The notes below the pieces were generated by a model that was given only the letters and a program-made list of their open reading frames with translations, had not been told where the DNA came from and ran no database searches. A stretch of DNA of 21,073 nucleotides from a virus. Below are positions 8,438 through 14,793 of the stretch, piece after piece (position 1 is the first letter of the stretch; every line of letters starts with the position of its first letter). Location: positions 1-21,073 of the IMG/VR virus record IMGVR_UViG_3300021959_000498; one strand, given 5' to 3'. The position numbers were made by a program, and so were the translations under genes.

Positions 8438-8769
8438 AGAACTTCGTGGAGCAGAACTGAGCCAGCACGATGCCCATAGAACGGGATTGTCCAGTCAAGC
8501 TCAGACTCAACAAATCTCACATTGATTGCTTCGTTCGTAGCAGGGTGATTCCAAGCAAAGGACTCAGCACCTTGGCTGTCAAAGAATGTCGCTAGTGTTT
8601 GGTAATCAGCTTCAGTCAGTTGCTTCCAAGACAGAGAGAACTCGCGTTTACTGACTGTTGCTGTGCTGCGTGTAAGTTCGTGACCTGACTCGAAGCGAGA
8701 CATGATCTTCCTACGCAGAAGTTTCTCACCAAAGGGATAGTCTGGATTTCTTATTGCAGGCCAAGCCAT
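8434..8769 (-). CDS. M: Minor tail protein M-like
   Basis: This encodes 111 residues, matching the lambda M length (109). The pattern MAWPAIRNPDYPFGEK, the TVSKREFSLSWKQLTEAD stretch and FFDSQGAESFAWNHP are typical of the phage minor tail family that sits between tape measure and L. In lambda, M joins the tail tip complex after H and helps to bind L. The ATG overlaps the tape measure stop (TAATG), so it is coupled to that gene. There are no catalytic residues; this is a structural role. Confidence 0.82.
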   Translation of the reverse strand: MAWPAIRNPDYPFGEKLLRRKIMSRFESGHELTRSTATVSKREFSLSWKQLTEADYQTLATFFDSQGAESFAWNHPATNEAINVRFVESELDWTIPFYGHRAGSVLLHEVL

Positions 8770-10841
8770 TATGCTAATGCTCCACGAAGCATATCTCTAC
8801 TGCCACCTTTGTTTCGATTGATTGAATCCATGACGATGGACATGATTGTCTCGCCATTGTCACGACGAACTGTGGCTTTTGAAGCTACCATTGATTCGCC
8901 TGTGTTGTTGATGATTTCGACTTTATTACGAAGGACTGAACCAGTTCCAACAGGACTAAGAACCGTTCCCTGCCCAACAGGTCCACCTCCACCAAGCGGA
9001 TTCATGAATCCAGAAATATCAGCACCACGGAATACCTCTGGACCACCAAACATAGACCCAGCCAACTTGCCAATACTCTCAGTAATCCCCATCGCCAACT
9101 TCTGACTCTGGATACGCAACATCGATTTAATGATGTCGTTTGCTAACCCATGAAATGCTGCTTTTAGGTCGGGTATCTTGTTGTTGAGCAAGTCGTCGAA
9201 GAAGGTGTCGAAGGTAGCTGTGAGTGACTGATTTAGGGTTGTGGCGAACTTCATGCTAATCTTATCCATGTCACCGTAGGTCTTTTCCCACTTGGTTTTT
9301 ATCTCATCGACTGCCTTCATGTATCCTGTGAGTTCTGGTGGAGTTTCGATTCTAGCATTCACATCTTCTATAGATTTCTTTAGATGCTCAAACCCTTCTG
9401 CGGCCTCCTCCTCTGGTGGCTTCCCTGACTTGGCAGTAAAACCTTTTGATAATTTTGAAAAAATCATTCGCCTTGAGTCAAGAACCTTGTCCATCATCTT
9501 CTTGTACTTATCAACGAAGGATTCTTTTTCGGGAGCTTTATCAAGTATCTTGGCCCTTTCTGCGTCAATAGCCTTTAGAAGCTCAGCTTCTCTCGCAAGC
9601 AAGTCTTTGTAATATTCTTTAGCTGCCTTTAGCGTTTCATCCTTGGACTTCTTAGAAAATAAATGATGAGCTAGCGGCGTTCTTCTTATGCTTTCGATAG
9701 CATCAATCGAATCTTTTATCTGTGTCCTGATTGGGCCAAGCGAGAGTGCCTCTTCTTTATCAAGCTCTGCCAATGACGCCTTCCCAAATGGATTCAACTC
9801 ACCATCCTTGCCGCGATACTTATTGCCCTGCTTCGCCTTCTTAAATTCGTTCATCATAGATCTCGCCTTGGTCAAAAGCAGGAGAACACTATTAATGGCG
9901 ATTCTTATTGAACTCATCATTTCATTTATCACAATCCCAACAACCTGCAATATGCCAGTATCGGCACCATAAAGCAACTTCGCAAACTCCTTGATGTCGT
10001 TGGAGATGTTATCGACATGCGTCCTCATACTCGTGAATATAGCGTCAATCTGAGGCTTGTTTGCCTTTATCAACTTAACCATTCCAGACACAGACGATGT
10101 GATTTTACCAAACGCATTCTTGGCAAATTCAAAAGCACCAGCATCACCTATCTCAGTCATCAACTTGAACCACTGAGTCTTCATTTGATTCACTCCAGCC
10201 GCCCATGTTCCGGCGTATTCCTTCATGGTTTCTTTGCCGCCTCTCCTCATGAATTTGAGCATGGCAGTGATAGCATCTTCAGAACTGAGCTGAACCTTCT
10301 TCATTTCGACCAAGACCTGTTTTGGAGTTTTCCCCATCTCCAGTGCCATCTTTTTAACCAACTGAGGGATGCGTTCTGCCAACTGATTAATCTCCTGCTT
10401 CTGAGCATGAGGCAGTGCTGTCATCTGACGAAACGCTCTGGTCACTCCAGAAATATCGTGAGCAGTTAATCCGTATTTGGTCTGAGCAGCGATCAGAGAT
10501 TCCATCGCGCCACTGGTCGGATCAATACCAGCATTAATCAAATCATTGAAAGAGTTCGTCATTTGCTGAATTGTAGATACGGGATTCTTTCTCTGAAAAT
10601 CCTCAATCCAAGCAAATGCTTGATCGGCAGCTTTGGCATCACCAAGAACTGCTTTCATCTTGATGTGCATTTGCTCAAGCTGGGAGTTAGACTCGATAAA
10701 ACTATCAGCTAACTTGAATCCACCAAAAGCTACAGCTAGACCCGACACGCCAGACATGAGCGACTTAATGCCCTTACTCACTTTCTGAAGCGGTTTGGTG
10801 GCAAAATCAACTGCCCTTATCGTTATCTTTACTGCGCTCAT
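8769..10841 (-). CDS. H: Tape measure protein (gpH-like)
   Basis: This encodes 690 residues, the longest helical protein of the tail module, placed directly after the chaperone pair as in lambda. A short hydrophobic segment lies at about 28-48 (SGLAVAFGGFKLADSF). The tape measure core region holds QKQEINQLAERIPQLVKKMA at about 160-180 and GTWAAGVNQMKTQW soon after. A second hydrophobic stretch near 305-335 contains SVLLLLTKA. Lysine-rich coiled-coil sequence fills the middle. The C-terminus (about 550-610, ATFDTFFDDLLNNKIPDLKAAFHG) resembles the lambda tape measure C-terminal domain. The protein sets tail length and enters the host envelope. At roughly 0.15 nm per residue the tail would be near 100 nm (an estimate). 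AAGG lies six bases before the ATG, and the gene overlaps the GT stop by 35 bases. Confidence 0.93.
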   Translation of the reverse strand: MSAVKITIRAVDFATKPLQKVSKGIKSLMSGVSGLAVAFGGFKLADSFIESNSQLEQMHIKMKAVLGDAKAADQAFAWIEDFQRKNPVSTIQQMTNSFNDLINAGIDPTSGAMESLIAAQTKYGLTAHDISGVTRAFRQMTALPHAQKQEINQLAERIPQLVKKMALEMGKTPKQVLVEMKKVQLSSEDAITAMLKFMRRGGKETMKEYAGTWAAGVNQMKTQWFKLMTEIGDAGAFEFAKNAFGKITSSVSGMVKLIKANKPQIDAIFTSMRTHVDNISNDIKEFAKLLYGADTGILQVVGIVINEMMSSIRIAINSVLLLLTKARSMMNEFKKAKQGNKYRGKDGELNPFGKASLAELDKEEALSLGPIRTQIKDSIDAIESIRRTPLAHHLFSKKSKDETLKAAKEYYKDLLAREAELLKAIDAERAKILDKAPEKESFVDKYKKMMDKVLDSRRMIFSKLSKGFTAKSGKPPEEEAAEGFEHLKKSIEDVNARIETPPELTGYMKAVDEIKTKWEKTYGDMDKISMKFATTLNQSLTATFDTFFDDLLNNKIPDLKAAFHGLANDIIKSMLRIQSQKLAMGITESIGKLAGSMFGGPEVFRGADISGFMNPLGGGGPVGQGTVLSPVGTGSVLRNKVEIINNTGESMVASKATVRRDNGETIMSIVMDSINRNKGGSRDMLRGALA

Positions 10842-11405
10842 TTAGAACCTTCTGCTCAAGTAGCTTGAGTCTGCGTAGCATAATGTCATCGAAGGTTTCC
10901 CCAAGCGATTCGATTACAATTTTACATGCGGTGTAGTCAAGACCTATCGGGCCATCCATGCCCATCCTCCACTGAGATGAGCAGTACGACCAGATTTCAA
11001 AAAACACATCCACCTCGTCATCAGACTCCGGTGGCTTAAAATCACAAGGCCCACATGGAGTGGGCTTTCCTAGACCTGAGAAAGCGACCCGACAAGCACT
11101 ACACTTGTCAGGTCCAGACTGATCAGCAGTATGCCAATCCCAAGTCTCTAGGATTTTTTTTCGACATCACCTCCGAACGTCTTGCCGATAATGTCCATAG
11201 CGAGCTTGAAAAACTCGATATAGGGCATCTTATCTAATTCAGCAGTGGCGTCAGGAAAAGTGTGAGCGCAAACCTTTTCAGCAACATCGTCGTCCAAATC
11301 GAATGAACTTTCGTTCGTTCCATTAAGGACGAGTTTGTGGAGGTTGATCCCGTTCTCTTTGAGAGCTTTGAGATCAACCCTTGTGAGTGCTTTAGCTTCA
11401 AGCAT
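10807..11405 (-). CDS. Tail assembly chaperone GT, -1 frameshift fusion (DUF1799-type C-terminus)
   Basis: Ribosomes that slip back one base on the A8 run at 11161-11154 leave the G frame just before its stop and read on to 10807, giving 199 residues. The join reads GAA AAA AAA then ATC CTA GAG, and the new frame has no stop until the TGA at 10809-10807. The extension contains CSAC and CGPC separated by 12 residues, a zinc-ribbon-like pattern. It then has SSQWRMGMDGPIGLDYTA, which I recognise as the DUF1799 signature found beside tape measure genes. In lambda, GT binds the tape measure and recruits tail tube subunits, then leaves before completion. The T frame has no usable upstream start except a weak GTG at 11013 that would cut off the cysteines. 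Confidence 0.85.
11148..11405 (-). CDS. G: Tail assembly chaperone G (unshifted product)
   Basis: This encodes 85 residues, ending at a TAG nine bases after the slippery site. It is acidic and helical with no catalytic motif (NLHKLVLNGTNESSFDLDDD). AAGG six bases upstream supports the ATG, which overlaps the tail tube gene by eight bases. Position between tail tube and tape measure, and the shift site at its 3' end, identify it as the G member of the G/GT pair. It coats the tape measure during tail assembly and is absent from mature virions in lambda. It is shorter than lambda G (140). Confidence 0.85.
   Translation of the reverse strand: MLEAKALTRVDLKALKENGINLHKLVLNGTNESSFDLDDDVAEKVCAHTFPDATAELDKMPYIEFFKLAMDIIGKTFGGDVEKKS
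11154..11174 (-). promoter_or_regulatory. Programmed -1 frameshift site with internal Shine-Dalgarno stimulator
   Basis: The zero frame reads GGA GGT GAT GTC GAA AAA AAA TCC TAG. The slippery heptamer A AAA AAA is at 11160-11154. GGAGGTGAT at 11174-11166 is complementary to nine bases near the 3' end of 16S rRNA (anti-Shine-Dalgarno region), with nine bases between GGAGG and the heptamer. This is the layout of the E. coli dnaX stimulator. A stop in the T frame (TGA at 11169-11167) immediately precedes the overlap, so shifting is the only obvious entry. Confidence 0.85.
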
Positions 11406-12351
11406 AGCTAGCCTTATCGTTCGTTAGTGTAACGACGATAGGATAACCCTCACTGGAATCTTGAAAGTAGGCTTTGAAGTTAATTGTGTGGTAAACTGGA
11501 CCATGACCACTGCGCTCCAACGGAGTACGAGGGAAACGAACCTCGGGCAATAGGAACGTCACAATGTTGGTGCCGCGAGTAGCAGTAATCTCGATGCTTG
11601 TTTCATCGCCAGAGATCGCCTGATTGTAGTAAGTCTGGTCTTCAAAGATCAGCTTGGCAGAACCACTAACCATCATCTTCTGCTCAGGCAGGTCAACGCG
11701 GAATCCGTTTGATGAGAGCGCATAAACGTCATCGGCCAAACCATTATCCACCTCGATGCTGACCTCAGTGGCAACAGCAACAGTGACGCCACCCTCTTTC
11801 ATCACGATGTCTTTCGCTTGGAATCGAGTCAGGACTTCTTCGACAGGCGTATTGTCCTGAGTTGAAACGCCAACAGTTTCAGAGCTACCAAGCAAGTCCA
11901 TGTCCACTGTAAGCTCAGTATCAACAGCGAAGTTGAATGACATGCGGTTGACTTTGATGCCGTCGAACAAGTGGTATGAGTTGATGTCAGAAAACCCACT
12001 CTCGAGAGTAGCCGATGGATTGGTGTTGCTTGGAGTAAACTCATGCTCATACGGACCAGCACCAGTTGTAGTGGGGGCACCAAACATCAGCTTGAACCAG
12101 TATCCCATGTTGGTTACATCGAAAGGAACCGACACTGGGCCTTCAACGGAGATGTTACCAAAGGAGGGCTCAGTCTCAAAGCGTTGAGCGTGGTTGATCG
12201 TTTCTGGATCAATCATATTCTCGCTTGAGCCAATACCGATACTGTTGAACGGCAACGATACCATATCCCCATCATTGATAGTGGGTGTGGTTCCGTAAGT
12301 GCTCTCAAAAACGAGATTCAGCTTTTCAAAAAATCCTCTAGCCTGTGGCAT
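11398..12351 (-). CDS. V: Major tail tube protein (gpV-like)
   Basis: This encodes 317 residues, beta-rich, with a start supported by AGGAG six bases upstream. The N-terminus (FEKLNLVFESTYGTTPT) and the segment ISVEGPVSVPFDVTNMGYWF are typical of phage tail tube proteins of the Phage_tube type. The C-terminus repeats the tube theme (FLLPEVRFPRTPLERSG, HTINFKAYFQDS). Hexamers of this protein stack around the tape measure to form the non-contractile tube. The position before G/GT matches lambda V (246 residues); the extra length suggests an added domain or a two-domain tube subunit. No Ig-like decoration is obvious. Confidence 0.85.
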   Translation of the reverse strand: MPQARGFFEKLNLVFESTYGTTPTINDGDMVSLPFNSIGIGSSENMIDPETINHAQRFETEPSFGNISVEGPVSVPFDVTNMGYWFKLMFGAPTTTGAGPYEHEFTPSNTNPSATLESGFSDINSYHLFDGIKVNRMSFNFAVDTELTVDMDLLGSSETVGVSTQDNTPVEEVLTRFQAKDIVMKEGGVTVAVATEVSIEVDNGLADDVYALSSNGFRVDLPEQKMMVSGSAKLIFEDQTYYNQAISGDETSIEITATRGTNIVTFLLPEVRFPRTPLERSGHGPVYHTINFKAYFQDSSEGYPIVVTLTNDKASYA

Positions 12352-13511: not shown

Positions 13512-13858
13512 TACCTAATGCGACCCCTGCGCCTAGTCTCATCAGCGGTGCAGGAGAATGACCACATGCCATGCTCGAGAACCAGTTGCTTGATAGACCA
13601 GTTGATGCCGTTGCCAACCTGAGCAATCACATCATAGATGGCGGGGTTCGTGATAAAAGCTGAGGCAGGTGCATAGATAGTACAAAGCTTCGAGATACTT
13701 CGATTCGCTTCGTTCTCTACACCTGCCCCAGTGTTAAATGATTCAATATCAACGGTTCCTTGGAAGGTTACACCTGCATGAACAAGATCTTCTTCGTGTA
13801 CTTTCGCACCGAAGAAGATCCTCTCCACATCATCATCAAGACGATCTTGGAACCCCAA
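13511..13858 (-). CDS. Head-tail joining protein (gpFII-like)
   Basis: This encodes 115 residues (lambda FII has 117), beta-rich, with VHAGVTFQGTVDIESFNTG and SIKQLVLEHGMWSFSCTAD. The stop is shared with the next gene. The start is uncertain: the frame begins with TTG 13858 only a few bases after the capsid stop and has no clear ribosome site, so coupling to the capsid gene is likely; a GTG ten codons in is a poorer choice. Position directly after the major capsid and before the Z/U genes fits the joining protein that forms the head-side interface for the tail. The family was not directly recognised. Confidence 0.55.
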   Translation of the reverse strand: MGFQDRLDDDVERIFFGAKVHEEDLVHAGVTFQGTVDIESFNTGAGVENEANRSISKLCTIYAPASAFITNPAIYDVIAQVGNGINWSIKQLVLEHGMWSFSCTADETRRRGRIR

Positions 13859-13863
13859 TATTT

Positions 13864-14793
13864 CTACAGACCCGTAAAGAGGTAGCCCGCTTCGCTCAAG
13901 ACGATCTTGTGATCCTCATGACTGCGAACACGGATGATGTTGCTGCGAGTCTGCTCTTCTTCGTAAGACTCAGTACCAACCAAACTGTCGTTCGACCAGT
14001 TCATAGTGAGTCCATACTTGGGGCCGCCTTGCAGAGAAGAACCACCGATCCACAAGAATCCTTTGGTGTCGTCCCAGATAGAACTACCAGAGAAGTCTTG
14101 CCCCTCATCAGCAGTGTTCTGGATACCAGAAGAGATCTTCAGGTCAACGCCCAAGAAGGCAGAAACCAGAGCGACCTGAGCTTCAAAAGCCATAGTCAAA
14201 GGGTTGGCAGTAAATTTGGCACTACCCAAGAACTCTTCACAAACCAAAATCTCTTGGAACTTGGCCCAAGTGATAGTGAGTCCGTTGGGAGCAACACCAG
14301 TGCGATCACGAACGGTAGCGATTGCATCCTTCACATCCTCGCGAGGAGTACAGGTAGCAGCAGTGGACCATGCAGTGCCAACAGCATTGCCAGACTCGGC
14401 ATATACGATGTCACGGATACGAATCTCGCGATTCTTGGCCTGATGACCGAGCAAGATGTTTTGCATCTCGATTTCGGCGTCAAGGTAAGAGTCGTAGTTC
14501 TCGGCCAATGTTTCGTCAACTGGACCTTCAAGACCGCGCTCAACACAAGAGAATGTATCTTGATCGAAACCAAAATCGATTCGGTTGTATCCACCACGAG
14601 GCGAACGAGAATCGTCTGCATTTTTCATCAGATCTTCTTTGTTCATCTTGGGGAATGCGCCAGATTGCAGCGATGTGCTGAACATGGGCATAATGCTCAA
14701 GCCAACATAACCAGCAGCATTTCCAGCTACGTCAAATTCTTTAGCGAGGTCGAATAAATCTCGACGCGCAATTACTGAGTTTGGACCAGACAT
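13864..14793 (-). CDS. Major capsid protein, HK97 fold
   Basis: This encodes 309 residues with a strong ribosome site (AGGAG, eight bases before ATG). It starts with a short N-terminal arm. The stretch DFGFDQDTFSCVERGLEGPVD suits the E-loop/P-domain start of HK97-fold capsids, followed by a long helix with RIRDIVYAES. The core (GVAPNGLTITWAKFQEIL, FLGVDLKISSG) and the C-terminal LTMNWSNDSLV region fit the family in which this helix-rich P-domain is followed by a beta/alpha A-domain. There is no N-terminal delta domain, in keeping with the separate nested scaffold upstream. Gene order (protease/scaffold, decoration, this) makes the identification secure. It forms the icosahedral shell. Confidence 0.9.
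   Translation of the reverse strand: MSGPNSVIARRDLFDLAKEFDVAGNAAGYVGLSIMPMFSTSLQSGAFPKMNKEDLMKNADDSRSPRGGYNRIDFGFDQDTFSCVERGLEGPVDETLAENYDSYLDAEIEMQNILLGHQAKNREIRIRDIVYAESGNAVGTAWSTAATCTPREDVKDAIATVRDRTGVAPNGLTITWAKFQEILVCEEFLGSAKFTANPLTMAFEAQVALVSAFLGVDLKISSGIQNTADEGQDFSGSSIWDDTKGFLWIGGSSLQGGPKYGLTMNWSNDSLVGTESYEEEQTRSNIIRVRSHEDHKIVLSEAGYLFTGL

Follow-up and report, generated by a model that had tools for sequence, protein, structure and literature searches.

In phage lambda, the overlapping genes G and T lie between those for the tail tube and the tape measure protein, and T is entered by a -1 shift near the end of G, at the slippery site GGGAAAG. This G/GT frameshift is conserved in long-tailed phages (Xu, Hendrix and Duda 2004, reviewed in PMC5009743). 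Tail-chaperone frameshifting has long been known, and internal Shine-Dalgarno (SD) stimulators are known for E. coli dnaX and for IS elements (PMC5009743), an estimated 56% of which carry one (PMC5009743). The main heptamers of IS1 and IS3 are A_AAA_AAA and A_AAA_AAG (PMC4066793) and, as a precedent beside a phage frameshift site, 3 of 13 clusters of IS elements and prophages were reported to have a conserved SD (PMC4066793). Our literature search, with key subscription papers outside it, found no publication in which a tail chaperone site carries an SD stimulator.

The window, by which we mean the whole 21,073-base stretch of viral DNA that was analysed, combines components that are all known elsewhere in an unusually clean arrangement, which is kept by two relatives. 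Like lambda G/GT, it has an overlapping gene pair flanked by the tail tube and tape measure genes, with T in the -1 frame and a putative slip near the end of G; unlike lambda, it has the heptamer A_AAA_AAA, a strong internal SD-like sequence and a DUF1799-type T with four cysteines. The slip at dnaX leads to a shortened product, whereas that in the window is predicted to extend one. An A-run heptamer, an SD stimulator and an extended fusion are also features of IS3/IS911-type -1 frameshifts; these, however, concern transposition genes rather than tail genes, and no homology is implied.

The record carries a lambda-like structural operon on the minus strand, comprising terminase, portal, tail tube, G, T, tape measure and J. 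The G/T pair sits between the tail tube gene (11398..12351, minus; PF18906, E=6.5e-43) and the tape measure gene (8769..10841, minus; PF20155, E=1.8e-20), as in other G/GT pairs. G, the presumed tail assembly chaperone gene, is an 85-aa open reading frame in the 0 frame (11148..11405, minus); in a profile search it scored above cut-off against neither Pfam nor PHROG families. Its weak similarity to the Pfam family Ntox33 (23 bits, against a cut-off of 28.4) was rejected as an identity for G and judged to be chance. The -1 frame is open at 10807..11166 (minus), from directly after a TGA at 11169-11167. After the slip, T would cover 11154-10807 (minus, 115 aa), starting with ILETWDW and continuing through a four-cysteine segment into DUF1799 (PF08809), which matches T residues 52-105 (E=6.4e-10; 39.6 bits against a curated cut-off of 26); T is assigned to PHROG 680. 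The cysteine segment that opens T before DUF1799 has the form CxxC-12-CxxC (11103-11044, minus) and is probably a zinc ribbon.

The 3' end of G on the minus strand reads GGC AAG ACG TTC GGA GGT GAT GTC GAA AAA AAA TCC TAG. The A8 run, which the original prediction had described just ahead of the G stop, lies at 11161-11154, and its last seven A's form the heptamer A_AAA_AAA (11154..11160, minus), followed in the G frame by TCC and then the stop TAG. T thus overlaps G in the -1 frame with an X_XXY_YYZ heptamer inside the overlap. Its frame does not open exactly at the slip site, as had been claimed, but six bases earlier, at 11166. We found no ATG, GTG or TTG in the T frame between this opening and GTG 11013, its first potential start, which lies downstream of all four cysteines. 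The original prediction was therefore right that a start at GTG 11013 would lose the cysteine motif. It also held that the DUF1799 product seems to need the slip, and this view is supported: the T frame has no start ahead of the cysteines, and homology of T across the family runs from the slip point on. If the slip at A_AAA_AAA is tandem, the reading becomes ILETWDWHTADQSGPDKC... It is important to note that an A8 run is not rare by itself (2 observed in the window, 1.3 expected), so its weight rests on its position, frame and conservation.

Upstream of the heptamer lies GGAGGTGAT (11166..11174, minus), a putative internal SD-like stimulator. Its nine-base match to the anti-SD tail of 16S rRNA was verified at 11174-11166, and the element occurs as a single exact copy in the whole window. 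The predicted spacing of nine bases before the heptamer is correct when counted from GGAGG; counted from the full GGAGGTGAT, it is five. Stimulatory SDs for -1 shifts are placed 9-14 nt upstream (PMC5009743), a range that includes the GGAGG of the window, and the distance from GGAG to the heptamer is identical in the window and in E. coli dnaX. Duplex energies were calculated with AUCACCUCCUUA as the anti-SD, from which the 16S tail of the host may differ. At -16.4 kcal/mol, the pairing exceeds every other on the sense strand of the window, none of which reaches -16 kcal/mol, and is far stronger than that of dnaX (-7.4 kcal/mol). GGAGGTGAT precedes no usable start codon. A point against the SD reading is that the start-codon SDs of this phage are weak on average (-3.8, compared with -3.2 at random positions), and a clear start-site SD is found in few genes of the minus-strand operon, including those for the tail tube, the capsid and an NlpC-like product.

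J-anchored and T-alignment scans of viral contigs led to two closest relatives, L028 (IMGVR_UViG_3300028581_000354; tail tube 52% and T 38% identical to the window) and L096, also L191 (IMGVR_UViG_3300047358_000383; tail tube 51%, T 43%). Both conserve the gene order of the window, and G is homologous to the G of each. Single-protein scans of viral contigs with G, T or the tail tube protein gave no matches; no near copy of the window record was found, nor were relatives of G among phage records. When the three junctions were combined into a DNA pattern, it matched only the L028 and L096 contigs in IMG/VR. The junctions read TTC GGA GGT GAT GTC GAA AAA AAA in the window, TTC GGG GGT GTT GTC GAA AAA AAG in L028 and TTC GGG GGG AAG GCC GAA AAA AAG in L096. 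Thus, the A_AAA_AAA of the window is not the dnaX heptamer, A_AAA_AAG, which is present in both relatives; there, GGGGG replaces GGAGG at unchanged spacing and still pairs with the anti-SD (-12.5 kcal/mol in L028, -9.7 in L096). The comparison of related phages that had been proposed as a check therefore found the heptamer kept, with GGRGG nine bases upstream, in both. Neither L028 nor L096 shows the opposite pattern, in which relatives lack both elements and have a standalone T start with a ribosome site of its own, and such a start is missing from the window as well. All predictions made at the level of sequence held.

The original prediction made no mention of structure 3' of the heptamer. 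The 80 nt that follow it have a fold energy of -32.4 kcal/mol (z -2.76) and include a possible stem-loop (11116..11147, minus), in which AGACU...AGUCU brackets GAUUGGCA/UGCUGAUC. The stem starts 6-7 nt past the heptamer, and 3' stimulators are positioned 4-10 nt past it (PMC4066793). A second predicted hairpin, of 12 bp (11086..11114, minus), covers the first CxxC codons and is probably too distal to affect the slip alone. Neither was seen in L028 or L096. The stem of the window is consequently unconfirmed and, in a difference from dnaX, not conserved; it is possible, though not established, that it adds to slippage. Across the family, mean structure z 3' of the heptamer shows a mild excess (-1.32, compared with -0.54 and -0.20 in control stretches), and there was no trade-off between SD strength and 3' structure (Spearman -0.05).

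An A_AAA_AAN heptamer, mostly A_AAA_AAC, was present at the G/T junction in 74 of the 79 T-scan loci examined. The scan gave no heptamer site at the other five (L107, L109, L125, L126 and L144), which comprise one truncated contig and two pairs of near duplicates; L025 had no slip site of this kind either. In total, 92 loci, near-identical contigs included, contain an X_XXY_YYZ heptamer where G and T overlap, and it is nearly always A_AAA_AAN. Loci from the other scans and prophage contigs agree on the heptamer, with L007 and L009 using T_TTT_TTC. T is conserved at the protein level from the slip point onward, and across the family a start codon in the T frame is seldom found close to the slip. 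In a nine-sequence T alignment of one branch, C18, C21, C34 and C37 are invariant; the four-cysteine segment is missing in the L122-L175 branch. In Klebsiella phage Solomon, a distant member of the same T family whose G is Phage_TAC_4 (E=1.8e-24), the depositors annotate a frameshift product in the DUF1799-type G/T pair. Solomon shares the T type and the G/T layout with the window but has A_AAA_AAC, with only GGCGG as SD. Taken together with the conserved heptamers, the conservation of T from the slip point, the rarity of starts and the Solomon annotation make -1 recoding the best account of T expression.

Among tail chaperones of the DUF1799 type, A_AAA_AAC predominates as the heptamer (L098-L175 and other T-family loci). 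It is reported to be inefficient in E. coli (PMC4066793), and its dominance may be explained by a low set point or by host differences.

We evaluated SD statistics in 48 representatives (<80% identical) with the published SD criterion (PMC4066793). An SD was found at 24 of the 48 sites, whereas 17.7% of control positions within these genes qualified (binomial 3e-7, relatedness ignored), and SD-like sequences are ~2.8 times commoner at the site than elsewhere in the genes. In the same representatives, mean 10-base pairing energy peaks (~-5.0) for starts 13-17 nt before the heptamer, with a trough (~-0.7) for starts 26-35 nt before it. When sites were weighted by 28 T-identity clusters, 12.5 were observed against 9.0 +/- 1.6 under synonymous shuffling (16/1000). 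As a specificity control, shuffled anti-SDs of equal composition gave a mean z of -1.7, compared with -2.6 for the true anti-SD, whose rank out of 100 was 9 by z and 3 by energy. Because shuffled anti-SDs recover much of the synonymous signal, what the family displays is a G-rich, SD-like signal whose specificity for the SD is unproven.

These comparisons support SD use that is strong in the window phage and its two relatives and patchy, only partly specific, in the wider family, where they are no more than suggestive. A broader reading would be that SD-like stimulators have been recurrently selected at DUF1799-type chaperone frameshift sites and tune G:GT, the window clade being their most extreme example; we offer this tentatively, as an idea that has a reasonable chance of being correct but on balance may well not be. 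In that example, the strongest sense-strand match to the anti-SD in the sequenced region lies within a coding gene, not before a start codon.

For the window itself, we consider it quite likely that a -1 slip at A_AAA_AAA, stimulated by SD pairing, operates in a lambda-type chaperone pair. The slip by itself is strongly supported by the sequence comparisons, and we hold it with greater confidence than the reading as a whole. The majority of ribosomes would terminate at TAG and release G. In a minority, the Lys-tRNAs on AAA AAA would slip one base back, yielding a G-T fusion (...GGDVEKK-ILETWDW...). With the heptamer in the P and A sites, the upstream GGAGGTGAT would pair with the 3' tail of 16S rRNA, and this pairing would pause the ribosome and pull it back, raising the rate of slippage as at E. 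coli dnaX; the 3' stem-loop may contribute further. By analogy with lambda, the resulting G:GT ratio would be needed for assembly of the tail tube on the tape measure protein.

The slip could be real and GGAGGTGAT a mere by-product of Gly-Gly-Asp coding, with the heptamer, perhaps together with the 3' stem, being enough. FGG before the site is also an amino-acid motif that all three phages keep, and the SD may in part reflect a coding constraint. Moreover, about half of the family sites lack an SD by the published criterion, a generic G-rich preference accounts for part of the family signal, and L002 has A_AAA_AAA with a poor SD. We nevertheless regard this explanation as unlikely: when the window site was shuffled synonymously with amino acids fixed, only 2.1% of versions paired as well, the strongest sense-strand match of the window stands at dnaX spacing, and both relatives keep G-runs, not just any glycine codon. 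More improbable still is that the polymerase adds one A at the A8 run and that the A9 mRNA is then translated normally into the same fusion. In the close relatives a run of only seven A's is followed by G, and in most of the family six A's are followed by C, which preserves the heptamer and not the long run; these shorter runs favour ribosomal slippage. An SD would also be irrelevant to the polymerase, although transcriptional slippage could coexist with a ribosomal slip. The A8 run is nonetheless long enough to be a candidate, and AAAAAAA is avoided in E. coli genes, for which transcriptional slippage is a possible reason (PMC4066793). Since the peptide VEKKILETW would be identical to that of the tandem ribosomal slip, the mass-spectrometric search for a join peptide, proposed with the original prediction, cannot separate the two routes.

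Two further alternatives are very improbable. T could be made from its own start, served by the strong SD; however, the T frame has no start before GTG 11013, where all the conserved cysteines are lost, and the ATG behind the SD, read by eye, lies two bases from GGAGG in the third frame, which is open for ~14 codons. Given that the window is a contig from an uncultured virus and that homopolymers are prone to error, a sequencing or assembly indel in A8 that splits one true gene might be suspected, yet independent contigs and cultured phages show the same split with different heptamers.

If SD-stimulated slippage operates here, an SD stimulator of the dnaX/IS type would also set a structural-protein ratio in phage tail assembly, and the natural variation of heptamer, SD and 3' stem in the family would inform how bacterial ribosomes set -1 slip rates. 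On this reading, T is missed or truncated by gene callers in these phages. Synechococcus phage Sc-Yong805-1 (L002) shares A_AAA_AAA and a CxxC-containing T with the window, but it lacks a good SD and carries a two-gene annotation; in it and in cyanophage MACPNOA1 (L006), G and T are annotated without a frameshift. The tail tube proteins of both (L002 3501-4439; L006 3351-4340) are labelled XerD-like recombinases in GenBank, which, judged by homology and position, is a misannotation. Finally, a 339-codon open frame on the plus strand of the window (13738-14757), antisense to the gene at the major capsid position, is probably a by-product of codon usage.
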